Shown here: positions 3,572-57,010 of the stretch, in pieces
Layout: every line of letters begins with the position of its first letter
How positions within the stretch are numbered: position 1 is the first letter of the stretch
NCBI GenBank assembly: GCA_022484595.1
Contig: JAKVLB010000007.1
Location: 1-64,000 of the forward strand
Direction of reading: 5' to 3'
Length of the DNA: 64,000 nucleotides
Source: Mageeibacillus sp.
GTDB lineage: Bacteria; Bacillota; Clostridia; Saccharofermentanales; Saccharofermentanaceae
Notes under the pieces: model-generated
The model's database searches: none
Seen by the model: the letters and a program-made list of their open reading frames with translations, nothing else
Told to the model about the DNA's origin: nothing
Made by a program: the position numbers and the translations under genes

Positions 3572-4281
3572 TAATTCTTCCTGCAATCGACCTGATAGGC
3601 GGCAAATGTGTCCGGCTGAGACAGGGCAGATATGATGATGTTACTGTTTACAGTGATGACCCGGTTTCGCAGGCGGAAAGTTTTCGCGACGCAGGTGCGC
3701 AATGGATTCACATCGTCGACCTTGACGCAGCCAAAAGCGGCATTCCGGAAAACTTCAGAATAATCTCCGAGATTGCCCGCACAACCGGGCTTAAAGTTGA
3801 TACCGGAGGCGGAGTGCGCAACATGGATACCCTGAGCCGCTGGATTGAAGATTACTCGGTGTCACGCGTTGTGCTCGGCACGGCGGCGGTTAAGGATCCG
3901 GAATTTACGAGACTTGCGATCGAGCGTTATCATGAGAAGGTCGCAATCGGAATAGATGCCCACGACGGTTTCGTTTCTGTTGACGGCTGGACTTCGGATT
4001 CAAAGCTTTGCGCTATTGACTTTGCCCTCATGATGAAGGATATAGGCGCTTCAACGGTTGTATTCACCGACATAGGAAGAGACGGCATGCTTACAGGTCC
4101 GGCAGTTGAAGCTACGGCTGAGATGGTCGCCAGAACCGGGTTAGACGTCATAGCGTCAGGCGGAATCGGCTGTGACGAGGATATTTCCGCGATAAAAGAG
4201 TCGGGGTGTGCCGGAGTCATTGTCGGGAAAGCCATTTACGAGGGAAGGGTGAATCTTAGAAAATGCTTACAAAACGTATAA
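3568..4281 (+). CDS. hisA: Phosphoribosylformimino-5-aminoimidazole carboxamide ribotide isomerase
   Basis: [49 protein letters not shown]. Confidence 0.95.
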
Positions 4282-5381
4282 TCCCCTGCCTGGACGTCAA
4301 AGACGGCAGAGTCGTCAAGGGCGTAAATTTTGTGTCGCTTCGAGATGCCGGAGATCCTGTCGAGTGTGCGAAAACATATAATCTTTCAGGTGCCGACGAA
4401 CTGGTTTTTCTTGATATCACCGCCACATTGGAATCGCGCGACACCACGGTTGATATGGTCAGGCGTGTTGCATCGGAGGTTTTCATTCCGTTTACTGTGG
4501 GCGGAGGAATCAGGACCTGCGACGATATAAGGCTGATGCTCAATGCGGGTGCCGATAAAGTATCGCTCAACTCCGCAGCTGTCAGCAATCACGGATTTGT
4601 CCGGGAGGCTGCCCGGATGTTCGGGTCACAGTGCATCGTAGTTGCGATAGATGTCAAGGCGAGAGATTACGGGTTTGCTTCAGGCTATGAGGTTGTAATT
4701 GCGGGCGGAACACAGCCCACAGGTATAGATGCACTGGAATGGGCGCACCGCGTCGTTGAGCTCGGATGTGGCGAGATTCTGCTTACATCGATGGACAAAG
4801 ACGGAACCAAATCCGGTTATGACAACAGAATCACCTCGATGATTTCCGGCTCTGTAGGGGTTCCGGTTATAGCGTCAGGCGGAGCGGGTTCACTTGAAGA
4901 TTTCGCGGAAGCCATCAATACAGGCAAGGCTGACGCGGTTCTCGCGGCGAGTCTCTTTCATTTCGGCGAGATTAAAATCAACGATCTGAAAGATTATCTG
5001 AGCGGACGTGATATACCGGTCAGACAGATACCGCGAACTCTTGATATGTGGTCGCACATGAAGAAAAACAGTGACGGTATGGTTGTTGCGATAACACAGG
5101 ACTTTGCAAGCGGCGAAGTTCTTATGACGGCATATATGAACTACGAGGCCTTTAAACTTACATGCGAGACGGGATACATGCACTACTATTCGCGTTCGCG
5201 CAAGCAGCTGTGGAAGAAAGGCGAGACTTCGGGTCATGTCCAGAGAGTCGACAGCTGCCGGATTGACTGCGACAGAGATACTCTGCTATACAGGATAGAT
5301 CAGACAGGCGCCGCGTGCCATACCGGGAACAGATCGTGTTTCTATACCCCGCTGGACACATGGGATCTTGGCACCGATTAG
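4263..5381 (+). CDS. hisF-hisI: HisF-HisI fusion: imidazole glycerol phosphate synthase cyclase subunit + phosphoribosyl-AMP cyclohydrolase
   Basis: Residues ~1-255 HisF ([19 protein letters not shown]...), residues ~265-372 HisI ([42 protein letters not shown]) in one uninterrupted frame. Confidence 0.93.
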
Positions 5382-5456
5382 TGACAGACCTGACGCCCGG
5401 CTTCAGGCATTTCCCAAACCGGTACAGATATACAAACGAAGCAGGAGGATATACAG

Positions 5457-5735
5457 ATGGATATCATGAGAGAACTTTACAGCGTAATTGCCGACCGCAA
5501 GGCAAACCCGGTGGAGGGTTCGTATACGAATTATCTTTTCGACAAGGGCACGGACAAGATATCGAAAAAACTCGGTGAAGAAGCCGTCGAGACTGTTATC
5601 GCCGCGTCCCAGCGTGACCGCAAGGCTACGATTCAGGAGATTGCAGATCTTGAATATCATCTTCTTGTGCTCATGGTCGACAGGGGCATTACACTCGATG
5701 ATGTTGAAGCAGAATTAAGATCAAGAAGAAGTTGA
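5457..5735 (+). CDS. hisE: Phosphoribosyl-ATP pyrophosphohydrolase
   Basis: SYTNYLFDKGTDKISKKLGEEAVETVIAA. Confidence 0.93.
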   Translation: MDIMRELYSVIADRKANPVEGSYTNYLFDKGTDKISKKLGEEAVETVIAASQRDRKATIQEIADLEYHLLVLMVDRGITLDDVEAELRSRRS

Positions 5736-5765
5736 TTGACTTTTGCAGTAGGACTGTGATACAAT
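5736..5765 (+). promoter_or_regulatory. Probable sigma70-type promoter for rpmG-secE-nusG
   Basis: TTGACT (5736) - 18 nt - TACAAT (5760). Confidence 0.55.
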
Positions 5766-5868
5766 CTTCAAGCTAAACCCATAGAGGTCTTCTTTTAGTG
5801 CGCAAATTTGCGCCGCCTAAGACCGTGATTAATAGGGGCTCGGACAATAATTTCGGAGGTATCAGACC

Positions 5869-6033
5869 ATGGCAAAGGCCGGTGCGCGTGATAAGATCAC
5901 TCTTGCATGCACAGAATGCAAGCAGAGAAACTATCAGACATTTAAGAACAAGAAGAACGATACAGAAAGGCTTGAGCTGAAGAAGTACTGCCCTTTCTGC
6001 CGTAAGCACACGATTCATAGAGAATCCAAGTAA
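5869..6033 (+). CDS. rpmG: 50S ribosomal protein L33 (54 aa, missing from the ORF track)
   Basis: [57 protein letters not shown] ggaggt; located before secE. Confidence 0.95.
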
Positions 6034-6051
6034 TTTCGAAGGATAAATGCA

Positions 6052-6393
6052 ATGGCGGATAAGAAAGCTAACATCTTTAAGCGTACAGGCAAGAAGTTCG
6101 GCGAGGTGATTGCGGAGCTTAAGCGGGTCGTATGGCCCACTAAGGAGAAGCTCGCAAAGACTTCCGCTGTTGTTCTGCTTGTTATTGTATTCTTCGCTGT
6201 ATATCTGACACTCATTGGCCAGGGCGGCCGCTGGGTTCTGGATAAGATCGGTTTCTACGATACAGTCGAGACATCTGCTACCGAGAGTTCCGCTTCCGAT
6301 ACAGTTGCCTCTGAATCTGCAACAGCGTCAGAGACCGCAGCTTCCGCGGAGTCCGTAACAGAATCCGTGGTTAACGAGAGCAGCGAAGGCTGA
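6052..6393 (+). CDS. secE: Preprotein translocase subunit SecE with Ser/Thr/Glu/Ala-rich C-terminal tail
   Basis: FGEVIAELKRVVWPTKEKLAKTSAVVLLVIVFFAVYL; between rpmG and nusG. Confidence 0.92.
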   Translation: MADKKANIFKRTGKKFGEVIAELKRVVWPTKEKLAKTSAVVLLVIVFFAVYLTLIGQGGRWVLDKIGFYDTVETSATESSASDTVASESATASETAASAESVTESVVNESSEG

Positions 6394-6411
6394 TTTACAG
6401 GAGTAATATAA

Positions 6412-6960
6412 ATGCCGGAGAATAACGAGGCCAAGTGGTATATAATACACACTTTTGGCGGATATGAGAAGAAAGTAAAGATGTCCATTGAGAGCTATGC
6501 GCAGGCGCAGGGTATGCAGGACATCATTCAGGAGGTTTTCCTTCCGACTGACGTGGTTGTCGAGACTAAGAACGGCAAACGCAAGGAGAAGGAAGTGCTT
6601 CGTTTTCCCAATTATCTATTTCTCAAGCTCGTGTACGGCAACAATGATAAGCTTGATAAGGAACTCTGGTACAGAATCCGCAACACCAACGGCGTTACGG
6701 GATTTGTAGCACCTGATCCCAACAAGCCGATTCCGATGACGGAAGAGGACCAGATCAAGATGGGTCTTATCGTTCCTACAGTGGTTGAGGTTGATTACCA
6801 GATCGGCGATCTTATCATTATTACTGACGGTCCGTTCAAGGACAACAAGGCAGTGGTCAAGGATATCAACGCCGAGAAGCAGCAGGTTACGGTCACAGTA
6901 TCAATGTTCGGTCGTGAGACGCCTGTCACACTTGATTTCATCAAGGTGAGAAAGGTCTGA
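6412..6960 (+). CDS. nusG: Transcription termination/antitermination protein NusG
   Basis: AKWYIIHTFGGYEKKVKMSIE, FPNYLFLKL, VTGFVAPDPNKPIPM. Confidence 0.95.
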   Translation: MPENNEAKWYIIHTFGGYEKKVKMSIESYAQAQGMQDIIQEVFLPTDVVVETKNGKRKEKEVLRFPNYLFLKLVYGNNDKLDKELWYRIRNTNGVTGFVAPDPNKPIPMTEEDQIKMGLIVPTVVEVDYQIGDLIIITDGPFKDNKAVVKDINAEKQQVTVTVSMFGRETPVTLDFIKVRKV

Positions 6961-7021
6961 TTAAGGTTTATTGGAGTGCATACTGCACTTTATATAAAAA
7001 TATTTTTGGGAGGTGGCCAAT

Positions 7022-20400: not shown

Positions 20401-21728
20401 GCCGGCTGGACGACAGGAAACAGCAGTACACCGGTAAAGAATATGTCAATTGCAGCTGGTACAACGGGCGACATAACTCTTACAGCCAACTGGTCAGCCG
20501 TAGATTATCAGCTTAACGTTGATCTGAACGGCGGTTCGGTATTGTCTTTAGCTCCGACAAGCTATAACATTGAATCCCCAAATATAGAGCTTGAGACACC
20601 GGTTCAGGCAGGACATACATTCATAGGATGGAGCGGCACCGGTATTCCGGAGAATACAACTTCACAGACGTTTGTATCGGGTCAGGAAGCACAGGCGACA
20701 GAAGCTACAAGGCCAACTGGCAGATCAACTCGTATTCACTCACGTTAGTTTCCAATAACAATTCCGGATATTGTATTACAAATTCGTATGATTACAATGC
20801 ACTGGTTACTCTTGATTCTGCGATGTTCAGCTTTGAAGGACATGATTTCGTGGAGTATAACAGCAAGCCTGACGGAACCGGCGATTCATATGCCAATCCG
20901 GGTGTTGTAAGTGTCACTGGCGATTTGACGCTTTACGCTATCTGGATCCCGGATTACGCAATTATAGAAGGTAACGATACACAAATTACACACGGATCTG
21001 ATTCTTACACGAGACTCAATCAGGATGGCATACGCGAAAATGCAGGCGGTCGTAGTCCGTCATTTACATCGAATGCACCGTTCAGTCTCTTTAAGGGCGT
21101 CTGCATTGACGATGTGGATCTTAATCAGGATCAGTTCTCTTCTGACGAAGGTTGCACGATAGTAACAATTTCAAGAAATATTCTTGAAGGGTATGGTGTA
21201 GGCTCTCACAAAATAACAATAAAGAGTACTGACGGTTCTGCTTCGACAACGTTTACGATATTCGCAGCGGCAGCAACACCTACGGCGGCTCCTACATCGA
21301 CTGTTACGCCAACACCTACGGCGGCTCCTACATCGACTGTTACGCCAACACCTACGGCGGCTCCGACATCGACTGTTACGCCAACACCTACGGCGGCTCC
21401 TACATCGACTGTTACGTCGGCACCTACGGCGGTTCCAACGGCTGCTGTTACATCAGCTCCTACGGCTGCAGTGACAGCCGCACCTACTGCGGCAACTGCT
21501 GCTCCGACTGTGGTAGCCGGCGCATCAAGGTCTTCACACGCAACGGTTGTAGCGGGTGCAACGAGGCTTAACAATGCAGGTGCGTCAGTTGCAAATGCTT
21601 CCGTAACTGCAACGGGTGAAGTTATGTCATCGTCGATATACGCCGCAGTAGCATTAATAACTATGGCGGCTGCAGGGTTCATCGTAGCGATTGCGAGAAG
21701 ACATCGCGAGGATGGCAGCAAGAATTAA
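17466..21728 (+). pseudogene. Large secreted surface protein with InlB/Flg_new-type repeats, TP-rich stalk and C-terminal TM; interrupted by one stop and two frameshifts
   Basis: Signal peptide at 17466; repeats such as YTVTYDEGEHGT..FTGWLDANTGSTYSAGSWITVSGNMNLVAQYK; in-frame TAA 18327-18329, frame changes near 19165-19180 and 20679-20681; homology resumes each time. Confidence 0.85.
21274..21430 (+). repeat. 36-bp tandem repeat encoding TPTPTAAPTSTV stalk
   Basis: Four near-perfect copies of acacctacggcggctcctacatcgactgttacgcca. Confidence 0.9.
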
Positions 21729-35738: not shown

Positions 35739-38513
35739 TTGAAAATTTACAGGCGTATTATACTCGATTGTATGAAACGCATAGTTCACATCTTTCTATA
35801 TTTTCTTCTGGCAGCGGCTGTTTTCGGCCTCCTTCTTGCGTCATTTGCAATGATCTGGACAATGGATGTCTGGAGACATATTACTTTCGATGAGATTATT
35901 TATCATCTGTCCGCGCCTATTGAAGGAACCAATCCCAGTGTAATACTGAGCTTTGTTTTGAGAAATCTTATTCCCGCTGCAGTTGTGGGACTTGGATTAT
36001 GGGGACTTAATATAGTTAATATATTAAAGAGAATCAAGAAAGCTAAACTCGTTAAGCAGATAAATGCCATAGCAGTAATTGTTTCTGTGGCGGTAATCGT
36101 TGTTGTTGCGGCACTTTTTATAAACAAGTATGACGCAATCGGGTATTACAAGGCTATGAACGAGAATTCGGATTTTGTCAAGGATAACTACGTGAAGCCG
36201 ACTGATGTTGATATTCAGTTTCCTGAGAAGAAGCGCAATGTTGTTTATATTTTTCTGGAGTCGATGGAGATGTCATATGCTGATAAGTCCGTCGGAGGCG
36301 CATTTGATGAGAATTACATCCCGGAGCTTACGGATCTGGCGCTTGGTGATAACGCCGAGTGCTTCGCCGGCAATGATGAGACGCTGAACGGCGCGGTGCC
36401 TATGCATGGAGCTACGTTCACATCCGGTGCCATGGTGGCGCAGACTTCCGGACTTCCGGCAATGGAGGAGATAGGCAACGCTGCGGGAACTCAGTCGAGT
36501 TTCTACCCGGGAGCTACCACAATCGGCGATATCCTGGGAGCTCAGGGCTACAATCAGGAGCTCATGGTTGGTTCGGACGCGGTTTTCGGCGGAAGAGCAC
36601 AGTATTTTTCCGGTCACGGCGGATACAAAATTTTCGATTATAATTACGCGCTTAATAACGGTTATATTCCCGCAGGCTATAAGGTATGGTGGGGATACGA
36701 GGACCAGAAGCTTTTTCAGTTCGCAAAGTCAGAGATACTGGCGCTGGCCGATGAAGATCAGCCTTTCAATTTTACGATGCTGACCGTGGACACACACTTT
36801 GAGGATGGCTATGTATGCCCGCTTTGCAGAGACGAGTGCGGCGACAACCAGTACGGCAACGTTATGCACTGCTCTTCACGTCAGGTTACAGAGTTCGTTG
36901 CATGGCTTCAGCAGCAGGATTTCTATGACAACACGACTATTGTCATTTGCGGCGACCACACAACGATGGATTCGAATTTCTGCTCCAGTGTGGATGATGG
37001 TTTCCTCAGACGCACATATATGACGATTCTTAATTCTGCCGCGACATGTGACAGTACCGAGCAGCGTCTTTATTCTACTTTTGACATGTTTCCTACGACG
37101 CTCGCGGCTATGGGCTGCCAGATTGAAGGCGACCGCCTCGGACTTGGAGTGAATCTGTATTCCGGGCAGAAGACGCTGCTCGAACAGTATGGCATTCAGT
37201 ATGTAAATACGGAGCTGTCGAAAAACTCCGACTTTATAAAGAACGATATCGCAGGTTATAAGTCCTTTGACGAGGCGGTTTTTGAGACAAATGCCGTTCT
37301 TGACACAAAGTACACGCCTGTCGTCGATGACGGCAAATTTACGGGTGTCGAATTCTCACTGTCGGGTCTCGAGACTACGGATGAACCCATACAGGCGATT
37401 CAACTGGATGTGTCAACACCGGGAGGGACATGGTCAACATCTTCACAGATGCAGCGAAATGAAGATCTTTCCTACTCAACTGTGTTCAGCGTCGACGGGC
37501 TTACTGACAGACAGCTTCTTAACCTGACGGTTACAGTAACAGATTCCAACGGAGATCAATATGAGATCTACAAAGATACGGGCTACCTGGGTAATATTTT
37601 TCACTACCTGCACTATGACATAAACGAGTACATAGACTCGGTGATGAATCTTGATAACGTGGTAGTTTTCGCCGCCGCATGCGACGACTGTTCGGGTGCA
37701 ATTTCGGATTCTACACTTGAGCTGCTGAGGGAACACGGTCTCGAAGCCAAATTCGACGAATCTGAGGGACTAAGCTGGTACGGAGTTGTGGCAAACGGTC
37801 ATGCCGAGCACGAAGATTGTTCAGACAGTCTTTTAAGTTACGGAGGAAGTCTGCCAAACGGCGATTTCTTCAGTCTTGAGAGCCTCGGAAGTGCCGGAGT
37901 TGCGGCGCAGATTGCCGCTCAGACCGAGAGTGTCCGCGAGAATGAGTCCATCGGGAATGAGAGCAACTCTCTTGTTAACGGAGTCGTCGATACGTTCCCG
38001 CAGGTAGCGGCCGTTACCAACGATGTTTTGGATGGCGATGTTCCGAAGCCGATGAGTTCTATAGTCGTAAACGGCAAAGAATACTCACCCAGCAACCGCG
38101 GTCTGCTTTTCGTTGTGTATGATCTCAATGAGGGCTGCGTGATTGATGCTGCTTCGTTCGATACGGCGCGCGACAGTTTCACCGGTGAGCAGTCAAAGGG
38201 TACTCTGGACTACGAGATATCTTCGTTCATGGGTTCTTCGAGACTTTCAGTGTCAGTGTCTGATATTGCGAGCCTTATTAACCTCAACAATACAGGAACC
38301 GCGGATCTTTATATCTGGGACGCCTCGACGATTGATACGCCGAAGCACTACGCACTGTCACTTGAGAACGGAAGCAACGGATACACTTATACCAAATCGG
38401 TGGATATCGATGATCTTGATCTGAGCACTGCGCATATGTCGATTTATATCAAGAAGGCCGGCGGAAGAATTCTGCTGAGATACAATGTACCGATCACATC
38501 AACTCAGAATTAA
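35739..38513 (+). CDS. LTA synthase/phosphoglycerol transferase-like membrane sulfatase-fold protein with long C-terminal extension (ILEI/FAM3-like)
   Basis: N-terminal TMs; RNVVYIFLESMEMSYADKSVGGAF, MVAQTSGLP, FNFTMLTVDTHFEDGY, TIVICGDHTTMD, TFDMFPTTLAAMG. Confidence 0.88.
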   Translation: MKIYRRIILDCMKRIVHIFLYFLLAAAVFGLLLASFAMIWTMDVWRHITFDEIIYHLSAPIEGTNPSVILSFVLRNLIPAAVVGLGLWGLNIVNILKRIKKAKLVKQINAIAVIVSVAVIVVVAALFINKYDAIGYYKAMNENSDFVKDNYVKPTDVDIQFPEKKRNVVYIFLESMEMSYADKSVGGAFDENYIPELTDLALGDNAECFAGNDETLNGAVPMHGATFTSGAMVAQTSGLPAMEEIGNAAGTQSSFYPGATTIGDILGAQGYNQELMVGSDAVFGGRAQYFSGHGGYKIFDYNYALNNGYIPAGYKVWWGYEDQKLFQFAKSEILALADEDQPFNFTMLTVDTHFEDGYVCPLCRDECGDNQYGNVMHCSSRQVTEFVAWLQQQDFYDNTTIVICGDHTTMDSNFCSSVDDGFLRRTYMTILNSAATCDSTEQRLYSTFDMFPTTLAAMGCQIEGDRLGLGVNLYSGQKTLLEQYGIQYVNTELSKNSDFIKNDIAGYKSFDEAVFETNAVLDTKYTPVVDDGKFTGVEFSLSGLETTDEPIQAIQLDVSTPGGTWSTSSQMQRNEDLSYSTVFSVDGLTDRQLLNLTVTVTDSNGDQYEIYKDTGYLGNIFHYLHYDINEYIDSVMNLDNVVVFAAACDDCSGAISDSTLELLREHGLEAKFDESEGLSWYGVVANGHAEHEDCSDSLLSYGGSLPNGDFFSLESLGSAGVAAQIAAQTESVRENESIGNESNSLVNGVVDTFPQVAAVTNDVLDGDVPKPMSSIVVNGKEYSPSNRGLLFVVYDLNEGCVIDAASFDTARDSFTGEQSKGTLDYEISSFMGSSRLSVSVSDIASLINLNNTGTADLYIWDASTIDTPKHYALSLENGSNGYTYTKSVDIDDLDLSTAHMSIYIKKAGGRILLRYNVPITSTQN

Positions 38514-43000: not shown

Positions 43001-43854
43001 ATCCTCTCGTAAGTATATGCATACCGCTTTATAACAACGCTTCTACGATAGAAGAGACGGTGCGCTCGGTCATAAGCCAGACATACAGGCCGTTAGAGCT
43101 TGTCATAGTCGACGACAATTCAACAGACAATTCATACGACGTGGTTAACAGCATTCTTGCGGAGCTGCCGGAGAATCTTGACGTTCTGAGGCATCTGGAG
43201 CGCAACACGTCAAATCTCGGAATGTCCGGAAACTGGAACCGCTGCCTGTCTCTTTGCAACGGCAGATATATAAAGCTTCTTTGCGCAGACGATACCATAG
43301 ACAGCTCGCTTGTTGAGCGCGAGGTGGAGGTTCTGGAGCATTTTCCTGAAGTCCTCTCGGTAGAATCCGATACGGCTTTTGTAGACAGGAACGGCAAAAT
43401 CACAGGTCATTACAATCGTTACCGCAAGAGCGGAACGGTATCCGGGCGCGAGACTGCGAGATATTCTCTTTTTCACCGCGATTACCTCGGTGCACCCCTC
43501 GCCAACCTGTTTCGTCGCACGGCATATGAGCAATATGGCGGTTTCGACCCTGACTTCCATTACATTGTCGACTACGAGTTTTTTATGCGGCTTGCCTGCG
43601 CAGGAGACGTGTTTATTATTCATGAGCCGCTGAATTTCTTCAGGCTGCGTCATGATTCGAATACTTCACAGGTGTTGGGCGGCGACGAAGGCAGATGCTA
43701 TGTTGAAGAGCATCGCCGGCTCGCCGAAAAGTTTGCCGCAGAACTGTCGTTATCGCCGTCAGATATCCGCCGCAGTGTCAGAATCCGCCGGCTTATGAAC
43801 CTGCTTGGCGGCATATACCTTAAGCTTCATATCGGGGGGAGGCAGAATGTCTGA
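42997..43854 (+). CDS. Glycosyltransferase family 2
   Basis: PLVSICIPLYNNASTIEETVRSVISQTYRPLELVIVDDNSTDNS. Confidence 0.93.
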   Translation: MNPLVSICIPLYNNASTIEETVRSVISQTYRPLELVIVDDNSTDNSYDVVNSILAELPENLDVLRHLERNTSNLGMSGNWNRCLSLCNGRYIKLLCADDTIDSSLVEREVEVLEHFPEVLSVESDTAFVDRNGKITGHYNRYRKSGTVSGRETARYSLFHRDYLGAPLANLFRRTAYEQYGGFDPDFHYIVDYEFFMRLACAGDVFIIHEPLNFFRLRHDSNTSQVLGGDEGRCYVEEHRRLAEKFAAELSLSPSDIRRSVRIRRLMNLLGGIYLKLHIGGRQNV

Positions 43855-45277
43855 TAACAGGCGGCACCGTTATTCTTTTAAACAGTTCGAAAAGATGGTA
43901 GAATTACACAATATGCAAAAGAACAGATTGATCATCAGCTTATTACTTATTATTTTTGCGGCAGCGGTTAACGTTGCCGTTTGTGTGAGACCGGAATCGT
44001 ATGATGACGCGACTGTCTCGCTAAATGTCACACTGGAATCGGATTCAAATCTCAGTACTCAGGTCTTCTATGCCGACACCAAAGATGCCGCAGGTCCTGA
44101 ATTTACCGAGGATAATTCGGTAAAGGCGGCGTATGCGGCAGGCAGCGGCGAAGCGACTTTATCATACGCAATTCCTGTAAGCGCCGTTTATGTCAGATTT
44201 GACCCTGCAACAGAAGCCGGAGTTACAGTCCTGATCAGGAAAATAACAGTATCATATGGTGATACTGTCATAGATACTCTTTCAGGCGAACAGACGGTTA
44301 CCGCCAAGGACAGCGACCCGTATATTCTCTTAGGCGAGCTTGATACAGATTTGGAGACGGCGGCAATTATACCGGCCGTTCACCGCAGGACACTTATCAG
44401 AAATATTGCAGAGTGTCTGGCGGTAGACCTGATAATTCTGCTTCTAATAATCAAGTGGTATTCTGTTGTTCCTGTTCCGAGGGAAATATGGCAGAACAGG
44501 GTACTTACGATGTCTCTCGCAAAAAACGATTTCAAGACAAGGTTCGCGGGTTCCTATCTCGGAATTGTCTGGGCATTCGTTCAGCCGGTCGTAACGATAC
44601 TTCTGTTCTGGCTCGTGTTCGAGAAGGCGATGCACGCAGGTCCGCAGCCAGCTGCCAATGGTACGACAGTGCCTTATGTACTCTGGCTTACAGCCGGTCT
44701 TGTTCCGTGGTTCTTCTTTCAGGACGCTCTTAATTCCGGAACATCGACATTTATGGAATACGCTTATCTTGTTAAGAAAGTGGTCTTCAACATAGGTATT
44801 CTTCCGGTGGTCAAGGTAATATCGAATCTATTTGTTCACCTGGCATTTGTGGCATTCATGTTTGTAATGTATCTGGCGCTTGGTCAGCCTGTCACGGTTC
44901 ATGCCGTACAGATTCTCTACTACTCTGTGGCAATGATCTGCTATGTTACGGCTCTGGTATACGTAACAAGTGCACTGTGCGTCTTTTTCCGGGATCTGTC
45001 ACAGATAATCGGAATCTTTATGCAGGTTTTCATGTGGTCCACGCCGATTATGTGGAACCTCGACAGTATGAGCGTATCGGCACCGGTCGGGCTGATCCTC
45101 AGACTCAATCCGATGTTCTACATTGTCCAGGGCTATCGTGACGCCATGATAAACCGGATATGGTTTACTCAGCGTCTTGATATTACCGTTTATTTCTGGA
45201 CGCTTACAGTGCTTCTGTTTATCTTAGGTACGACGATATACAGAAAGCTTAAAGTTCATTTTGCAGATGTTCTCTGA
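43847..45277 (+). CDS. ABC-2 type polysaccharide export permease (Wzm/TagG-like) with N-terminal extracytoplasmic domain
   Basis: LAKNDFKTRFAGSYLGIVWAFVQPVVTILLFWLVFEKAM, VPYVLWLTAGLVPWFFFQDALNSGTSTFMEYAYLVKKVVF. Confidence 0.93.
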   Translation: MSDNRRHRYSFKQFEKMVELHNMQKNRLIISLLLIIFAAAVNVAVCVRPESYDDATVSLNVTLESDSNLSTQVFYADTKDAAGPEFTEDNSVKAAYAAGSGEATLSYAIPVSAVYVRFDPATEAGVTVLIRKITVSYGDTVIDTLSGEQTVTAKDSDPYILLGELDTDLETAAIIPAVHRRTLIRNIAECLAVDLIILLLIIKWYSVVPVPREIWQNRVLTMSLAKNDFKTRFAGSYLGIVWAFVQPVVTILLFWLVFEKAMHAGPQPAANGTTVPYVLWLTAGLVPWFFFQDALNSGTSTFMEYAYLVKKVVFNIGILPVVKVISNLFVHLAFVAFMFVMYLALGQPVTVHAVQILYYSVAMICYVTALVYVTSALCVFFRDLSQIIGIFMQVFMWSTPIMWNLDSMSVSAPVGLILRLNPMFYIVQGYRDAMINRIWFTQRLDITVYFWTLTVLLFILGTTIYRKLKVHFADVL

Positions 45278-45291
45278 CAAAGGGTGTTGAT

Positions 45292-46557
45292 ATGGATAAT
45301 GATTACGCTATTAGAGTTAAAAATGTAACCAAGATTTACAAGCTTTTCGAGAAAAACACAGACAGAATCAAGGAGAGCCTGGGACTGAGCCGCAAGAAAC
45401 TGTACAGGGAGCACTATGCCCTGCGCAATCTGTCGTTTGATGTCCATCGCGGCGAAGCTGTAGGTATAATCGGTGTAAACGGTGCAGGCAAGTCCACAAT
45501 ATTGAAAATTATTACCGGAGTTCTCAATCCGACAGAGGGAGAAGTTGAAATCAACGGAAGAATATCCGCGCTTCTCGAACTCGGCGCAGGTTTCAATATG
45601 GAATACACCGGCATTCAGAATGTATACCTCAACGGAACGATGATCGGATTCACGAAGGAAGAGATTGACGCCAAGCTCAAAGATATTCTTGAGTTCGCAG
45701 ACATTGGCGATTTTGTCTACCAGCCGTGCAAGACTTACTCTTCAGGTATGTTTGTGCGTCTGGCGTTCGCGGTTGCGATTAACATCGATCCGGAGATACT
45801 GATTGTAGACGAGGCACTGTCTGTGGGAGATGTGTTCTTCCAGACGAAATGTTTTCGCAAGTTTGAAGAATTCAGAAAGAACGGCAAGACGATACTGTTT
45901 GTCAGCCATGACTTGAGCTCCATACGCAAATACTGCGACAAGGCAATATTGCTTGCTCACGGCGAGAAGGTCGGGGAGGGAACTCCGGCCGAGGTCATCG
46001 ACATGTATAAGAGGGTTCTTGTCGGACAGTTTGAGGATGATGACGAGAAGGCTCAAAGTGCGGCCGCGGCTCCTGCCGTAACCGGCGAGTGGAAGAAGAA
46101 TTACGTTATCAATCCGTCGTTTGATGAATATGGGGACAGAGACGCGGAGATTGTAGACTTCGCGATTGTTGACAGCCGCGGCAAGTACACAAGTGTTCTT
46201 GCAAAGGGAGACGATTTCCAGATCAAAATCAGGATAAGGGCGAACAGAACCGTTGAAGAACCTATTGTCGCCTATACGATAAAGACGCTAAAGGGCACGG
46301 ATATAACCGGAACCAACACGATGTTCGAGAAATATAGTCTGGGGACGATGAATCCCGGCGACGAGAAGACCGTAACCTTTACACAGAAGCTCGACATTCA
46401 GGGCGGACAGTATCTGATGTCATTCGGATGTACCAGATACGAGAACAATGATTTCAAGGTGTTCCACAGGCTCTATGATATAATCAATCTGTCGATAGTG
46501 TCTGAGAAAAATACCGTCGGCTATTATGATATGAATTCTGTTATTGAAGTGAAATGA
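45292..46557 (+). CDS. ABC transporter ATP-binding protein with C-terminal Wzt-like carbohydrate-binding domain
   Basis: GIIGVNGAGKSTILKIITGVLNPTEG, YSSGMFVRLAFAVAINIDPEILIVDEAL; ~170 aa C-terminal beta domain (EWKKNYVINPSFDEYGDRDAEIVDFAIVDS...). Confidence 0.94.
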   Translation: MDNDYAIRVKNVTKIYKLFEKNTDRIKESLGLSRKKLYREHYALRNLSFDVHRGEAVGIIGVNGAGKSTILKIITGVLNPTEGEVEINGRISALLELGAGFNMEYTGIQNVYLNGTMIGFTKEEIDAKLKDILEFADIGDFVYQPCKTYSSGMFVRLAFAVAINIDPEILIVDEALSVGDVFFQTKCFRKFEEFRKNGKTILFVSHDLSSIRKYCDKAILLAHGEKVGEGTPAEVIDMYKRVLVGQFEDDDEKAQSAAAAPAVTGEWKKNYVINPSFDEYGDRDAEIVDFAIVDSRGKYTSVLAKGDDFQIKIRIRANRTVEEPIVAYTIKTLKGTDITGTNTMFEKYSLGTMNPGDEKTVTFTQKLDIQGGQYLMSFGCTRYENNDFKVFHRLYDIINLSIVSEKNTVGYYDMNSVIEVK

Positions 46558-47471
46558 GAACTATGGATACAAGAATTGGCAAAGTAAAGCTCAACTGCGA
46601 TTTCTACAGCGGTACGGATACATATTCTGACGGGGATATTGAGAACAGGCTTCTCGATATCGTCAAATCCGGCAAAGACCTCGAAGAAGTGTTGATTGAG
46701 GACACGGATTGGCCGGTGCTGTATCATCTGTCTGACATAAGAAAGAACATTGTCTCATGGTATGATTTTAACAGCAAGGGAACCGTTCTTGAGATAGGAT
46801 CAGGATGCGGCGCGATTACCGGGGCCCTGTGCGAAAAGACATCCAGAGTCGTCGCCATTGATCTGTCGAAGAGACGTTCAGAAATTAACGCTTACCGCAA
46901 TAATTACGATAATCTTGAGATTATCGTCGGTAATTTCGAAGATATAAAAACTGACGAGAAGTTTGATTACGTCACGCTGATCGGCGTTCTTGAGTATTCA
47001 ATCTATTATATTAATTCACCGGAGCCGTTTCTCGATATGCTCAGAAAAGCAAGGGAATATCTTAAACCCGGCGGGCAGCTCATCATTGCAATAGAGAACA
47101 AGTACGGCCTTAAGTACTGGGCCGGCGCCAAGGAGGATCACACCGGCGTGGAATTCGACGGAATACAGAATTATTCGGGCGTAGACAGAGTGAGGACCTT
47201 CTCAAGGGGCACTCTTGACAGACTTCTTTGTGAGGCCGGATTTAAAGATAACGATTTCTACTATCCGTTTCCTGATTATAAGCTCCCGCTGGAGATTTAC
47301 TCACCTGAGCATCTTCCGGGTACCGGTGAGCTCTTATCGTATTCTCCGGCATATGACAGAGACAGAGTGGTTCTGTTTGATGAAGCCAAGGCGGCGGAAG
47401 CGCTGGTGCAGGACGGTCTGTTCGAGGAATTCGCCAACTCATTCCTGGTTATCAGCAGGAGGGCCGACTGA
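46554..47471 (+). CDS. Class I SAM-dependent methyltransferase
   Basis: GTVLEIGSGCGAITGALCEKTSRVVAIDLSKRRSEINAYRN, DYVTLIGVLEYSIYY, LKPGGQLIIAIENKYGLKYWAGAKEDHTG. Confidence 0.92.
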   Translation: MRTMDTRIGKVKLNCDFYSGTDTYSDGDIENRLLDIVKSGKDLEEVLIEDTDWPVLYHLSDIRKNIVSWYDFNSKGTVLEIGSGCGAITGALCEKTSRVVAIDLSKRRSEINAYRNNYDNLEIIVGNFEDIKTDEKFDYVTLIGVLEYSIYYINSPEPFLDMLRKAREYLKPGGQLIIAIENKYGLKYWAGAKEDHTGVEFDGIQNYSGVDRVRTFSRGTLDRLLCEAGFKDNDFYYPFPDYKLPLEIYSPEHLPGTGELLSYSPAYDRDRVVLFDEAKAAEALVQDGLFEEFANSFLVISRRAD

Positions 47472-47473
47472 TT

Positions 47474-50400
47474 ATGGACAAGATGATTTACATAAAATAC
47501 AACTCACTCAGGAAGCCGGAATACAGGGTAAGCACAGAGATCCGTGAGAATGATGACGGCATGCGCAGCGTCGTGAAAAGACCGATGAACCGGGCTTCAG
47601 CTGCTCAGATCAATACAATCAAGAGCAACTTTACAAAGCTGTCCGGACTCTATCGCAATGTCGGTATTATTCCTTTTACCGAAAACGGTGACGTGTTGGT
47701 ATTCCCGTTTATCTTCGGCAGACCTCTTGCGGCAGACATTGATCTGCAGCACATGTCAACAGACGAGATATACGGCAGGATAGATGAAGCATTGAAGATT
47801 ATCTACGATTTCAGAGAGGATGCCGGTAATTTTGTCATTACAGACAGATTCAAGTCGGCGTTCCCGGGACTTGTTCCGGGTGAGAACGAACCGGCGTATT
47901 CCGTCACCAACATCGATTCCAATATTGATAATTTTCTTGTGTCGGAGGGCAAAGTATGGTGCATAGATTATGAATGGGTATTCGATTTTCCTGTGCCCGT
48001 CAGATATGTCAGATTCAGAACTCTCCTGTATTACTATGCTAAGCAGAATGCCTTCATCGCCGACAGAATCAGCGCCGATGAATTCTATTCCCACTTTGGA
48101 TACACTAACGAAGATGTCAGACTGTTTACCGAAATGGAGGACTGCTTCCAACAGTATGTACACGGTACAAACCGCAGATACATAGTTACTTCTCACTACG
48201 AGAAGACACACAGAAGCTTTGCTGAGATAAGCGAGCTCGCGACAAAGCTTCCGGAAGAAATCAGGCTCAAGGACGCGCACATAGGAAATCTTAATGAGAT
48301 TATTAGTAGCGACAAGGAACTGCTTACGGAGAAGGATTCCCACATAGGTAATCTAAATGAGATTATACATACCGACGAAGAAGCCATCACTTCATTGAGA
48401 GGCGATGTGGATATGCTCAACAACACGGTGAGTGAATGCAATAGTACAATCAGTAAGCTCAACTCAGATATCTGGGAACTCAACTCAACCGCCTTTTCAC
48501 TCAAGTCAAAAGTCAGAAGACAGCAGGAGCTGCTTGACTGTGACAGAAGGACAATCGAGAGCAAGGATAACCACATCGGCAATCTCGAAGCTATAATTTC
48601 CAACCGGGAGGATATTATTTCCATCCGTGAAGAACAGTTAAGCCAGCGCGATGCGTATATAAGTGAGATCATGCACGCCATAAAGAATCCGTTCTACGGA
48701 ATGTATCTTGTCTGCAGGAAGATTAAGAACAGAATTGTACCCGCAGCAGGTGATAAAACTGCAAAGCAAAATTCCGAATCTGCCGCGGGCGATGCCGCAG
48801 ACAATCAGAGCGGAATGAATGTTAAGACAGAGAACTGCACAGCTGGCGGTTCGGAAGCTCCGAGTATTGCGGTAAATGATTATGAGGAATGGATAACAAA
48901 GATAGAATCAGGTCAGACCTATGACGACAAGTTCGATTATATGCCGACAATATCGGTCATAGTTCCAGTCTATAACGTGCTGGACAAGCACCTGGTTCCA
49001 TGCATTGAATCAGTGCTTAACCAGATATATCCTAACTTCGAGCTCTGCATGGCAGACGATTGCTCCACATGGGACAACGTCAGGACTACGCTGAAGAGGT
49101 ACGAGGACAATCCGAAGGTAAAGATAGTCTACAGGAAAGAGAACGGCCATATTTCACGGAGTACCAATTCCGCAATGGAACTCGCGACAGGCGAATTCGT
49201 AGCGTTCCTCGACTGCGATGATACGTTAAGCCCCAACGCCCTGTATGAGGTGGTGAAAGAACTCAACAGGAACAACAAGCTTGACTTCATCTACAGTGAT
49301 GAGGACAAGACAGATGACGACGGAAAGAACCGTCACAGTCCGTTCTTTAAGCCTGACTGGTCTCCGGATACACTTATGTCTCTTATGTATACCTGCCATC
49401 TCGGCGTATACAGGACTTCGATTGCCAGGGAGATAGGCGGTTTAAGGACAGGCTTCGAAGGCTCACAGGACTACGATTTTGTTCTTAGATTCACGGAGAA
49501 TCTCGCGCGCGACCACATAGCGCATATTCCGAAGATTCTCTACCACTGGCTTGAGCGCAAGGAATCGACTTCCGTCAATCCTGAATCCAAGCCTTATATA
49601 TTGGAAGCTGCACTGAAGGCAAAGCAGGAAGCGGTCGAACGCCGCGGTCTTACGGCAAATATAGAGCTGATCAGGGAACAGTATCAGTACAGAGTGGATT
49701 ATGTAAGCCGCACCAATTCCAAGGTGAGCATAATTATGCCTTCAAAGGATAATCCGGAAGTAATAAGACGCTGCATAGAATCGGTCAGGTATCTCACCAG
49801 ATATCGCAACTATGAGATTATTGTAGTCGACAACGGAAGCTCCGATGAGAACAGGGCTCTGTATCAGAAGCTGGTCTCCGAGGTGAACGGAAAGTATATA
49901 TATTTCCCCGAACAGTTCAACTTCTCTCACATGTGCAATCTCGGTGCGGCAAATTCTGAAGGCGAGTATTATCTGTTCCTCAATGATGACACAGAAGTGC
50001 TTGACGGAGAATGGCTCGGCAGGATGCTGGGACAGGCTGAGCTGGCTCATACAGGTGCCGTCGGAGTCAAGCTTATATATCCGCAGAACAATCTGATTCA
50101 GCATTGCGGAGTGATCAACACAGGTACAGGCCCGGTGCATGCATTCGGCATGATGAGCGATGAGCCAAGCTATTACTACGGCCGCAACAAGCTGACCTAT
50201 AATTATCTTGCGGTTACGGCAGCCTGCCTCATGGTATCGCGGGCTAAGTTCGAAGAGATCGGAGGCTTCAACGAGAATCTCGCTGTCGCCTATAACGACA
50301 TGGATTTCTGTTTCAAACTTGCGGAAGCCGGATACTATAATGTCGTTAGAAATGACGTCGTGCTCTATCACTATGAGTCTCTGTCAAGAGGCGATGACAG

Positions 50401-50911
50401 AGCTGACGAGGCTAAGATGATAAGACTCGGCAAAGAGAGAGAACATTTATACAGCATTCACCCGGATTATTATTATACCGATCCGTACTACAACGAGAAC
50501 CTCAACCAATATGCGAATGATTTCTCGATTAACTTTCTCAAGCTTACCGAGAACGTATGCAGGATTGAGGCCGCTTCACAGGAGTATGAAGAATCTGATG
50601 AAGTTTGCGGATACCTTGATTCCGTCTATAACAACCGTCGTATCTTCATCCAGGGCTGGGGCTTTCTCAAAGGTCATTGCGGGAGCGTGCCGGCAAAGAT
50701 TCTTTTCTCAGGCGGCAGCATAAGCTACGTTATCTCGACGGAAGCTATGCCGAGACCGGATCTCGCAGTGCCCTTCGCTCAGGAACAGGGCGTAGCATCA
50801 TCCGGATTCAGAGCACTTATAGACAAAAGCAAACTTAATCCGGGAACATACAGTCTGTCAATTGTATGCGGCGACCTGAGAGTTGACGCTAAGAGAACGG
50901 TAGAGATATAA
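47474..50911 (+). CDS. 1145-aa multidomain protein: N-terminal kinase-like domain + coiled coil + tandem GT2 glycosyltransferase domains
   Basis: Kinase-like NIDSNIDNFL..WCIDYEWVFDFP; heptad-rich segment ~48245-48690; GT2 motifs SVIVPVYNVLDKHLVPCIESVLNQIYPNFELCMADDCST and SIIMPSKDNPEVIRRCIESV...DNGSSDENRALY. Confidence 0.85.
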   Translation: MDKMIYIKYNSLRKPEYRVSTEIRENDDGMRSVVKRPMNRASAAQINTIKSNFTKLSGLYRNVGIIPFTENGDVLVFPFIFGRPLAADIDLQHMSTDEIYGRIDEALKIIYDFREDAGNFVITDRFKSAFPGLVPGENEPAYSVTNIDSNIDNFLVSEGKVWCIDYEWVFDFPVPVRYVRFRTLLYYYAKQNAFIADRISADEFYSHFGYTNEDVRLFTEMEDCFQQYVHGTNRRYIVTSHYEKTHRSFAEISELATKLPEEIRLKDAHIGNLNEIISSDKELLTEKDSHIGNLNEIIHTDEEAITSLRGDVDMLNNTVSECNSTISKLNSDIWELNSTAFSLKSKVRRQQELLDCDRRTIESKDNHIGNLEAIISNREDIISIREEQLSQRDAYISEIMHAIKNPFYGMYLVCRKIKNRIVPAAGDKTAKQNSESAAGDAADNQSGMNVKTENCTAGGSEAPSIAVNDYEEWITKIESGQTYDDKFDYMPTISVIVPVYNVLDKHLVPCIESVLNQIYPNFELCMADDCSTWDNVRTTLKRYEDNPKVKIVYRKENGHISRSTNSAMELATGEFVAFLDCDDTLSPNALYEVVKELNRNNKLDFIYSDEDKTDDDGKNRHSPFFKPDWSPDTLMSLMYTCHLGVYRTSIAREIGGLRTGFEGSQDYDFVLRFTENLARDHIAHIPKILYHWLERKESTSVNPESKPYILEAALKAKQEAVERRGLTANIELIREQYQYRVDYVSRTNSKVSIIMPSKDNPEVIRRCIESVRYLTRYRNYEIIVVDNGSSDENRALYQKLVSEVNGKYIYFPEQFNFSHMCNLGAANSEGEYYLFLNDDTEVLDGEWLGRMLGQAELAHTGAVGVKLIYPQNNLIQHCGVINTGTGPVHAFGMMSDEPSYYYGRNKLTYNYLAVTAACLMVSRAKFEEIGGFNENLAVAYNDMDFCFKLAEAGYYNVVRNDVVLYHYESLSRGDDRADEAKMIRLGKEREHLYSIHPDYYYTDPYYNENLNQYANDFSINFLKLTENVCRIEAASQEYEESDEVCGYLDSVYNNRRIFIQGWGFLKGHCGSVPAKILFSGGSISYVISTEAMPRPDLAVPFAQEQGVASSGFRALIDKSKLNPGTYSLSIVCGDLRVDAKRTVEI
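48914..49337 (+). repeat. Long near-identical direct repeat, copy 1 (copy 2 at 51091-51514)
   Basis: 424 bp aligned by eye at offset 2177; 2 mismatches noticed (near 49083 and 49163). Confidence 0.9.
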
Positions 50912-50913
50912 GA

Positions 50914-52731
50914 ATGATCAATTTATTCGCCAAGATTGCAAGAGTCATCTATGTATTCAGAATGAACTGGAAACAGGGCATCTATTACATCAGAAAATTC
51001 GGCATCAGAGTGACATATGCCAAAGTAGTTTCGTGCTTCAAGGCTGTAAAAACCGATTACGCTGACTGGATTGAAAGCGTGGAGGCAAAGCAGACCTATG
51101 ACGACAAGTTCGATTATATGCCGACAATATCGGTCATAGTTCCAGTCTATAACGTGCTGGACAAGCACCTGGTTCCATGCATTGAATCAGTGCTTAACCA
51201 GATATATCCTAACTTCGAGCTCTGCATGGCAGACGATTGCTCCACATGGGACAACGTCAGGGCTACGCTGAAGAGGTACGAGGACAATCCGAAGGTAAAG
51301 ATAGTCTACAGGAAAGAGAACGGCCATATTTCACGGAGTTCCAATTCCGCAATGGAACTCGCGACAGGCGAATTCGTAGCGTTCCTCGACTGCGATGATA
51401 CGTTAAGCCCCAACGCCCTGTATGAGGTGGTGAAAGAACTCAACAGGAACAACAAGCTTGACTTCATCTACAGTGATGAGGACAAGACAGATGACGACGG
51501 AAAGAACCGTCACATGCCGCACTTCAAGCCCGACTGGTCTCCGGACACTCTGATGTCCAACATGTACACCTGCCATCTCGGAGTATACAGGACTTCAATC
51601 GCCAGGGAGATAGGAGGTCTTCGCGTCGGTTACGAGGGGTCACAGGACTATGATTTTGCCCTGAGATTCACGGAGAACCTCTCGCGCGACCACATAGCGC
51701 ACATTCCGAAGATCCTCTACCACTGGCTTGAGCGCAAGGAATCGACTTCCGTCAATCCTGAATCCAAGCCTTATATATTGGAAGCTGCACGAAAAGCAAA
51801 AGCCGATGCTATCTCACGCCGGGGACTTGAAGCTGATATCGAGCTTGTCGATATCATGTATCAGTGGCGCGTAAATTATAAGGTTCAGGGCAATCCTAAA
51901 GTCAGCATAATTATTCCTTCAAAGGACAATCCGGAGATAATCGAGCGATGCATTAATTCTGTGGTTAATCTTACGGACTACAGGAATTATGAGATTATTG
52001 TCGTTGACAACGGCAGCAACGGGGCAAACCGCGCAGTTTATGAAGCACTTATCGGCAGAGCCGGAGGAAGGTATATTTATCAGCCGGAGGTTTTCAATTT
52101 TCCTCATATGTGCAATACCGGGGCAGCTGCCGCTACAGGCGATTATTATCTGTTCCTCAATGACGATACCGAAGTCACCGAGGGGCAATGGCTGCAGCGG
52201 ATGCTGGGTCACGCTCAGATCCCGCACGCCGGTGCGGTCGGGGCCAAGTTGCTCTATCCTGACAGTAAGAAAATCCAGCACTGCGGAGTCATTAATATCG
52301 GCAACGGACCTGTGCATGCCTTCGGCGGAATGACGGATGAGTATACGTATTTCTTCGGCCGCAACAGAATTGATTACAACTGGATCGCGGTAACCGCCGC
52401 GTGTCTCATGGTCGGTGCCGACAAATTTGCCAAGGTGTCAGGCTTTGATGAAGAGCTGGCAGTGGCATATAATGATGTGGATTTATGCTTTAAGCTTTAC
52501 GAAGCCGGTTACTATAACATAGTCAGAAATGATGTTATTCTCAGACATTATGAATCCGTCAGCCGCGGCGACGACAGAGCCGATGCAGAAAAAATGGAGC
52601 GCCTTAACAACGAACGAAGCAGTCTCTATTCCAGACATCCGTCAATTGGCTGCGGTGATCCGCTGTATAACATTAATCTCAACCAGCACGCTAATGATTT
52701 CTCTTTAAATTATGAACTGGAACAATACTGA
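50914..52731 (+). CDS. Tandem-domain GT2 glycosyltransferase, paralogous to the C-terminal part of the preceding gene
   Basis: Same GT2 motifs; near-identical first GT domain. Confidence 0.92.
   Translation: MINLFAKIARVIYVFRMNWKQGIYYIRKFGIRVTYAKVVSCFKAVKTDYADWIESVEAKQTYDDKFDYMPTISVIVPVYNVLDKHLVPCIESVLNQIYPNFELCMADDCSTWDNVRATLKRYEDNPKVKIVYRKENGHISRSSNSAMELATGEFVAFLDCDDTLSPNALYEVVKELNRNNKLDFIYSDEDKTDDDGKNRHMPHFKPDWSPDTLMSNMYTCHLGVYRTSIAREIGGLRVGYEGSQDYDFALRFTENLSRDHIAHIPKILYHWLERKESTSVNPESKPYILEAARKAKADAISRRGLEADIELVDIMYQWRVNYKVQGNPKVSIIIPSKDNPEIIERCINSVVNLTDYRNYEIIVVDNGSNGANRAVYEALIGRAGGRYIYQPEVFNFPHMCNTGAAAATGDYYLFLNDDTEVTEGQWLQRMLGHAQIPHAGAVGAKLLYPDSKKIQHCGVINIGNGPVHAFGGMTDEYTYFFGRNRIDYNWIAVTAACLMVGADKFAKVSGFDEELAVAYNDVDLCFKLYEAGYYNIVRNDVILRHYESVSRGDDRADAEKMERLNNERSSLYSRHPSIGCGDPLYNINLNQHANDFSLNYELEQY
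51091..51514 (+). repeat. Long near-identical direct repeat, copy 2 (copy 1 at 48914-49337)
   Basis: See copy 1. Confidence 0.9.
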
Positions 52732-54375: not shown

Positions 54376-54448
54376 AAGGTACTTCAAGCAAGTATATCAT
54401 TACAGATTTGAATAGAATAAATGCATATTACAAAGGGACGGCACATTG

Positions 54449-57010
54449 ATGGAGAAATATAAGTGTAAAGCACATATAATCTCTACTCATATATTATGTT
54501 TTTTCCTTGTTACAGTATTACTAACGCTGACACTTACTTTATTCTGGACGATGAGAATCTGGAAAACAATAACATTCTCTGAGATTGCTTATTATCTGAC
54601 ATCCAATATAGAAGGAACAAACTCCGATGTAATTAACAGCTTTTTTATGCAAAACCTTTTGCCATCAGTAATCATTGCGGCTGTTTGGGCTATTTTAAGA
54701 ATAGTCTGGATAAGATATGGACACAATGCAAAGCTGTTTACTGCAGCAACATTTGTTTTAGTTTCCGTTTTATTTGTCTGTTCATTGATTATATTTACTA
54801 TAAAATACCGGGTAATCGATTACATCAAGAACTGTGGTGAGAATTCTGATTTCGTTGAACAGGTATATGTTGATCCTGAACAGACTATTATTACGTTCCC
54901 CGAGAAGAAACGTAACATTATTTATATCTTTCTCGAGTCCATGGAAATGACGTATGCCGATCAAAATGACGGCGGAGCATTTGAATCAAATTGTATTCCG
55001 GGACTGACGGCACTTGCTGAGTCAAATGAATGTTTTTCTGATTCAAATGAAAGTCTTAATGGTGCTTCTACGGTTTATGGATGTACATATACGATGGGAG
55101 GCATGGTGGCACAGACATCAGGGCTTCCGATATTCAGCGGCGTTGGAAATGCAATGGGAACAAAAACAGAGTTTTATCCCGGTGTAACTGCTATCGGCGA
55201 CATACTGGAAGATAATGGCTACAATCAAGAGCTTATGATTGGTTCACCGGCAGAATTTGGCGGAAGAAACCAATACTTCAAAGAACACGGTAATTACAAA
55301 ATATTCGATTATGATTATGCTATAGCAAACGGATATATACCTGAAGATTATTCTGTCTGGTGGGGTTATGAGGATGCGAAGTTATTCTGCTTTGCCAAAG
55401 AAGAAATTACTAATCTGGCATCGGAAGACGAGCCGTTTAATTTCACTATGCTTACTGCGGATACTCACTTTGAAGACGGCTATTGTTGTGAACTGTGCCA
55501 AGATGAGTTTGACAGCCAATATGCAAATGTTATGGCATGTTCAAGTCAACAGGTTTGTGAGTTTGTAACGTGGATTAAAGAACAGAGCTTCTATGAAGAT
55601 ACGACTGTTGTTATTTGTGGCGATCATTTAACCATGGACTCTGATTTCTGCGATGATGTTGACAGCGATTATCAGAGAAGAACTTATGTAAGTATTATTA
55701 ATTCTGCAGCCGACCTAGAAGATGATGACAACGCAAGACAGTATACAACGCTTGACATGTTTCCTACGACGCTTGCTGCTATGGGGTGTGATATAGATGG
55801 AAACAGACTTGCTCTTGGTGTTAATCTGTATTCATCGTCCCCAACTTTGCTTGAACAATATGGAATCAATTATCTGAATGAAGAGTTATCTAAAAGTTCT
55901 GAATTTGTAAACGAGAATATTGCAAGTATCGATTCTTTTGACACGGATATTATTGCAGCCGGTAATCTATTGAATCTTGTCATAAGTCCAAGTATTTATA
56001 ATTCTGATGGGAAGGTGGAATTATCGCTAAGCGGACTTGAGAACATTGAGTCCGCGATTCAATGTGTCTACGTGGAGATATATGACGAGAATGGAAACCT
56101 TGTGGACACTATGGAAATGGAAAGATACCCCGATCTCACATACAATGCCCTGATTGATTCTTATAAATACAGAGACAGCGAAGATTACATAATGAGATTC
56201 TTTGTTACCGATGAGAGTGATGAGAAACATTTTGTATATTCTTACACATGCAGATTGGGAAATGACTTTTGCTGCTGTCACTCGGATATAAACGCGTATT
56301 TGAGATTACTTCGGCAGACCAAAGACATTGTTATATTTGGAGCAGTAAAGGATGACGCCGCTGTCAGTCTGGGTACATCCACAATCAATTATATGCATTT
56401 ACTTGGTTTCAAGGCAAAATTTGCAGGTTCATATAGATCCGTATGGGTAGGAACTAATTGCAATCAGTACAGCGAACAGATTGGAACAGCAGAAGAGTGC
56501 GTCAGCTTCGGAGGTCATCTTGAGGACGGAACAAAATATTCACTCGTCAGCTCCGGGTATGATAGAGATAATTATTGTTCAATTGCAATTGATGGAGTTG
56601 AATATGCAGTGTGTGAGCGTGGAATTAACCTTGTAATATATGATACTCGTAAAGGCAGAGTAGTTGACAGCGTTGCTTTTGATACATATGGTTCATATAT
56701 GACTTGCGACGAGCAGCCAGGATATCTGATAAACTCCATTCATGGAGAGACTATCGATATTTGTCTGACTGACTTAAAGAGAAATATGAATGTCTCAAAC
56801 ATCAGCGAAGTTTACGCATATATTTGGGATAAGGACACTGAAGGATGTCCAACAAAGGTTTCATTATCTGTTGACAGTAACTTTAATTTTATGTATACAT
56901 GTAGTATTGTTGATATGGACAGACAGTCCATGTACATTTCTGTATATATAAGAGCCAATGGCGGTTGTGTAATTTGGAGAGAAATTCAGAGGGTGAATTA
57001 TGGTAATTAA
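54449..57010 (+). CDS. LTA synthase-like protein, second paralog, with ILEI/FAM3-like C-terminal extension
   Basis: RNIIYIFLESMEMTYADQNDGGAFESN, MVAQTSGLP, FNFTMLTADTHFEDGY, TVVICGDHLTMDSDFCDDVDSDYQRRTY; collinear with 35739-38513. Confidence 0.88.
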   Translation: MEKYKCKAHIISTHILCFFLVTVLLTLTLTLFWTMRIWKTITFSEIAYYLTSNIEGTNSDVINSFFMQNLLPSVIIAAVWAILRIVWIRYGHNAKLFTAATFVLVSVLFVCSLIIFTIKYRVIDYIKNCGENSDFVEQVYVDPEQTIITFPEKKRNIIYIFLESMEMTYADQNDGGAFESNCIPGLTALAESNECFSDSNESLNGASTVYGCTYTMGGMVAQTSGLPIFSGVGNAMGTKTEFYPGVTAIGDILEDNGYNQELMIGSPAEFGGRNQYFKEHGNYKIFDYDYAIANGYIPEDYSVWWGYEDAKLFCFAKEEITNLASEDEPFNFTMLTADTHFEDGYCCELCQDEFDSQYANVMACSSQQVCEFVTWIKEQSFYEDTTVVICGDHLTMDSDFCDDVDSDYQRRTYVSIINSAADLEDDDNARQYTTLDMFPTTLAAMGCDIDGNRLALGVNLYSSSPTLLEQYGINYLNEELSKSSEFVNENIASIDSFDTDIIAAGNLLNLVISPSIYNSDGKVELSLSGLENIESAIQCVYVEIYDENGNLVDTMEMERYPDLTYNALIDSYKYRDSEDYIMRFFVTDESDEKHFVYSYTCRLGNDFCCCHSDINAYLRLLRQTKDIVIFGAVKDDAAVSLGTSTINYMHLLGFKAKFAGSYRSVWVGTNCNQYSEQIGTAEECVSFGGHLEDGTKYSLVSSGYDRDNYCSIAIDGVEYAVCERGINLVIYDTRKGRVVDSVAFDTYGSYMTCDEQPGYLINSIHGETIDICLTDLKRNMNVSNISEVYAYIWDKDTEGCPTKVSLSVDSNFNFMYTCSIVDMDRQSMYISVYIRANGGCVIWREIQRVNYGN

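Follow-up and report, generated by a model that had tools for sequence, protein, structure and literature searches.

Two described polysaccharide systems are closest in layout to the locus considered here. In Klebsiella pneumoniae O7, ORF6 comprises a methyltransferase-kinase, a coiled coil, a GT2 domain with a DXDD motif and a GT2 domain with an NXD motif; module I (DXDD) adds two rhamnoses, module II (NXD) adds one, and the methyltransferase-kinase caps the chain (PMC11231755). In Escherichia coli O9a, WbdD is a kinase-methyltransferase terminator with a coiled-coil ruler (PMC3482155). Exchange between gene copies has been described in bacteria for Salmonella tufA/tufB, where the measured conversion walk is ~500 nt either way (PMC5485169), and for class-I release factor genes (PMC4530459).

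The window, i.e., the whole stretch of 64,000 nucleotides that was analysed, contains an ABC-exporter polysaccharide cluster with two neighboring genes, A and B, that are predicted to encode two-module GT2 enzymes. The features are as follows.

43805–45277, + strand: ABC-2 exporter permease, Wzm-like (PF01061)
45292–46557, + strand: ABC exporter ATPase with a C-terminal glycan-binding domain, Wzt-like (PF00005, PF14524)
46554–47471, + strand: methyltransferase gene (Pfam PF13847 and others), directly before gene A
47474–50911, + strand: gene A, an ORF of 1145 aa with a kinase-like domain, coiled coil, GT2 module I, GT2 module II and C-terminal domain (Pfam PF00535 twice)
47474–48163, + strand: kinase-like domain of A (about aa 1–230), from an AlphaFold model, Foldseek and conserved residues
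48914–49337, + strand: tract I in gene A, the first near-identical block, within GT2 module I
49338–49505, + strand: diverged island in gene A, between the tracts (partner 51515–51682; 35 differences in 168 bp)
49506–49613, + strand: tract IIb in gene A, the second near-identical block, at the end of GT2 module I (2 synonymous differences to its partner)
49614–50539, + strand: linker and GT2 module II of A, with old divergence from B
50914–52731, + strand: gene B, an ORF of 605 aa with just the two GT2 modules, I and II (Pfam PF00535 twice)
51091–51514, + strand: tract I in gene B, the partner of gene A tract I, with 2 mismatches
51683–51790, + strand: tract IIb in gene B, the partner of gene A tract IIb

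Architecture of genes A and B and of their cluster

The N-terminal domain of A was modeled by AlphaFold with a mean pLDDT of 88.5. Foldseek matched the domain to APH, macrolide (MPH) and Rio kinases with a best E of 7e-6, at TM-scores of only 0.3–0.5, and the residues Asn146, Asp148, Asn153, Asp165, and Glu167 are conserved (N-x-D, D-N-F, and D-x-E-W motifs). The coiled coil, read from the sequence, is modeled as one long helix from aa 249. Within it (48272–48598, aa 267–375) lie three near-copies of the motif D-x-HIGNLxxII, at aa 267, 288, and 365, and some relatives carry one similar motif. If the coil of A acts as a chain-length ruler, the repeat number could tune it. Both A and B contain FLDCDD (DXDD) in module I and FLNDD (NXD) in module II. 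The nearest relatives of the protein are found in Lachnospiraceae and other Clostridiales.

As in K. pneumoniae O7 ORF6, a kinase, a coiled coil and two GT2 modules follow one another in a single protein, A, and the donor-site motifs of both A and B are DCDD and NDD. An ABC exporter and nearby dTDP-rhamnose genes are likewise shared with the O7 cluster. Indeed, a set of rmlA, rmlB, rmlD, and rmlC lies at C7:67065–70524, 3 to 7 kb past the window (rmlC by Pfam, the others read from their sequences), and in Sinorhizobium NGR234 a homolog of the GT2-GT2 portion adjoins rfbB, rfbD, and rfbA. Unlike in O7, the methyltransferase is a separate gene here, although it is fused to an A-type protein in two genomes of the same genus, G052 and G023 (L069 and L070); moreover, a second bi-GT2 gene is present and the host is clostridial. 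By its layout and motifs, the cluster resembles the O7 polymerase-terminator. Judged by their architecture, A and B would be glycan polymerases of this kind, and the glycan made by the cluster probably contains rhamnose. If A worked as ORF6 does, rhamnosyl transfer and methyl-phosphate capping would be expected, of which the nearby rmlABDC genes are no more than suggestive. With E. coli O9a WbdD, the locus shares a kinase, a methyltransferase and a coiled coil, encoded in both cases next to an exporter with a glycan-binding domain on its ATPase; unlike in O9a, the coiled-coil protein A also bears the GT2-GT2 modules. No WbdD chain occurred among the PDB sequence matches of the methyltransferase or gene A at E 0.01, and WbdD was absent among the Foldseek matches listed for the N-terminal domain of A.

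Other repeated elements are present in the window. Two long sulfatase-family (LTA-synthase-like) membrane-protein paralogs of the same cluster (35739–38513 and 54446–57010) share 44% amino-acid identity and 66% nucleotide identity over 1 kb, without a near-identical patch. A tandem DNA repeat at 21274–21469 (124 bp at 88%, offset 72) encodes a linker rich in Pro, Thr, and Ala, close to the C-terminal end of a predicted surface protein (20628–21728). A 77-bp repeat was set aside as a pair of tRNA genes.

Young identity within old paralogs

With the offset fixed at 2177, each base of gene A was set against its counterpart in gene B. An earlier note had described 48914–49337 and 51091–51514 as matching with only 2 mismatches between diverged flanks, and the comparison bears this out: in the 424 bp of tract I, only 49085 (A/G) and 49163 (A/T) differ, both nonsynonymously. 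The second patch is also present, with 2 synonymous mismatches in 108 bp, at 49525 and 49537; its end, previously placed at 49614, is at 49613, since the bases paired at 49614 differ. The island between the tracts (168 bp) shows 79% identity. On the 3′ side of the tracts, identity is ~65% overall, roughly 50–76% per 50 bp, up to ~50540, where the homology ends; upstream, the homology starts only at ~48878. Hence, the paralogs are a mosaic, as proposed, with per-50-bp identity dropping outside the tracts rather than uniform along the pair. All near-identical patches are confined to the first GT2 module, and a whole-genome DNA search revealed only two copies of the tract, those in A and B. When codon columns were shuffled 20,000 times, no 141-codon window came below 51 differences, in comparison to 2 observed.

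The contrast is strongest at synonymous sites. In tract I, none of 86 synonymous sites differs (135 codons encode the same amino acid in both genes and allow a choice of codon), and synonymous divergence in tract IIb is 0.08. The island has a pS of 0.60 and a pN of 0.09, and the linker and module II (49614–50539) have a pS of ~0.7–0.8, i.e., saturation, with a pN of ~0.25–0.28. Within tract I itself, 15 relatives compared with A and B are saturated (mean pS 0.90), which shows that tract I is neither under nucleotide constraint nor an invariant element. In segment trees, the A–B distance is 0.017 for module I versus 0.74 for module II. A and B are sisters in both trees, weakly supported for module II (82/82), with A–B branch lengths that differ about forty-fold. 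Scaled by the distance to other species, the A–B amino-acid distance is 0.05 in tract I, 0.08 in tract IIb, 0.39 in the island (95% range 0.13–0.67), and 0.83 in the rest after the tracts (range 0.75–0.93). Collectively, the scaled distances, the segment-tree distances and the synonymous contrast show that the paralogs are old and their identity is young. The recent duplication that the earlier note had offered in its heading as an alternative to gene conversion is therefore not supported, given the age of the copies.

Probable gene conversion and competing explanations

The tracts are very probably the product of a recent homologous exchange between old tandem paralogs, preceded by a probable earlier and wider exchange of module I. 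Gene conversion, as first proposed for this pair, is supported by zero synonymous differences in the tract versus saturation outside, and by patchy tracts in an otherwise alignable pair. In the mechanism that we propose, homologous recombination between the direct copies, presumably RecA-type, would recently have copied ~424 bp and a further ~108 bp nearby from one gene to the other. This exchange would have erased nearly all differences from most of the first GT2 module, while the second module kept its old divergence. The island is more alike than expected (pS 0.60 versus 0.82 for module II, Fisher P 0.008; scaled amino-acid distance about half that of module II), which points to an older exchange that probably spanned the whole first module (~700 bp, 48914–49613) and was partly overwritten by the recent one. 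The two ages of exchange are suggested by the 56 codons of the island. The two young tracts may reflect either one exchange with patchy repair or two separate exchanges. Exchange between sequences ~20% apart is normally suppressed; thus, the event would have needed local anchors or the history left by an earlier exchange. In the single genome of this species, neither third-position G+C nor the two residual differences pointed clearly to a direction of transfer.

The lengths of the tracts fit the conversion walk of ~500 nt either way at the Salmonella tuf genes (PMC5485169). As in tufA/tufB and the class-I release factor genes (PMC4530459), diverged copies share unbroken tracts, a few hundred bp long, that have sharp edges and reset synonymous sites. 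Unlike those genes, A and B lie side by side as direct repeats within a variable surface-glycan cluster, and only one of their two catalytic modules shows the exchange. Outside the tract, they are also far more diverged than tufA/tufB, which has 12 differences.

A single consensus placed into both copies by the assembler or polisher is a very unlikely source of the identity. An assembler that merges similar copies could smooth a few differences in this single assembled genome of the species, and related draft-genome contigs can break here, as at a contig end within the module in G070. Collapse, however, requires copies that are already near-identical, and surroundings of 65–80% identity are kept apart by assemblers. 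Moreover, two differences survived in tract I and two in tract IIb, and each copy is embedded in unique flanking sequence, with both on one 125,744-base contig.

Import of the same module I stretch into both genes from another strain or species is given very little credence. Such glycan clusters do swap modules between species (PMC11231755), and third-position G+C is slightly higher in tract I (0.65) than in the flanks of A (0.53–0.57). Yet two events with almost the same tract would be required, the closest relatives found reach at most ~79% amino-acid identity in the segment, and module I has a similar third-position G+C (0.60–0.65) in two of three same-genus relatives. No mobile carrier emerged from phage and plasmid records, which yielded only relatives below 60% identity, or from viral contigs, which yielded three at 23–41%.

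A tandem duplication of the GT2-GT2 region in recent times, after which selection quickly drove the second modules apart, would agree with the adjacency of A and B, their weak sister grouping in module II and the A-type gene without a close B in same-genus relatives. It is hardly credible, however, and was rejected on the strength of the synonymous contrast, which it could survive only if the mutation rate varied by orders of magnitude within the gene. Protein-level selection cannot leave tract I unchanged while saturating the synonymous sites of module II, and synonymous sites have diverged in the island as well.

Tract I forms a 424-bp direct repeat whose copies are 2177 bp apart and in the same codon phase, so that a recombination product would be in frame. 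A 2177-bp deletion is predicted to yield a 1026-aa fusion in which the kinase domain and the coil come from A, module I is a hybrid, and module II comes from B. The RecA-type deletion of ~2.2 kb suggested earlier is thus sound as a prediction, and the deleted allele was not seen in the one genome available.

Neighboring bi-GT2 genes in Clostridia

A survey of Clostridia with one genome per species comprised 49 same-strand bi-GT2 pairs within 12 kb of each other, at 34 loci. Only the A/B pair has any 40-codon window above ~82% identity. Within this sample, the neighboring bi-GT2 architecture recurs in Clostridia and recent homogenisation does not; with none in the other 48 pairs, homogenisation is not supported as a habit of the family. 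In the same genus, no close B was found beside the A-type gene in G052, G023, or G033. Two apparent parallels were rejected. In the three-gene array of L118, the first half is the more alike one for two of the three pairs, but one module is synonymously about as diverged as the other. In G036, a 194-bp direct repeat of 99.5% identity (L127, 3342–3535 and 7076–7269) flanks a bi-GT2 gene (3556–7020) and hence lies outside it. A psuG-like gene has its 3′ end in one of the copies, and the repeat looks like a gene insertion with target duplication or an assembly join. Contig C160 of G070, a same-genus genome that is only 75% complete, stops ~130 bases into GT2 module I of an A-type gene (L072, 3374–3505), as it would at a repeat, and a repeated module may be present there too. 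In G557, tandem repeats with a 306-bp unit and >99.6% identity (L130, 16978–18197) lie ~6 kb downstream of a bi-GT2 pair. Gene conversion in this kind of glycosyltransferase or capsule locus was not found in the literature, which was covered partly by title.

The event is ordinary in kind, since ectopic gene conversion is already known, and the locus offers a clean natural case of gene conversion limited to one module of polysaccharide polymerase genes. It also carries a caution: for such proteins, a tree built from the first GT2 module can be misleading. The in-frame A–B deletion is a specific prediction from the repeat. It seems unlikely that selection maintains repeated exchange so that two polymerases keep one first catalytic module in common and can vary freely in the second. 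If it does, the glycan would be variable at one linkage with a common linkage retained, and the repeat would also permit A–B fusion. If exchange recurs among strains of the species, it would provide a route for re-assorting surface-glycan enzymes.
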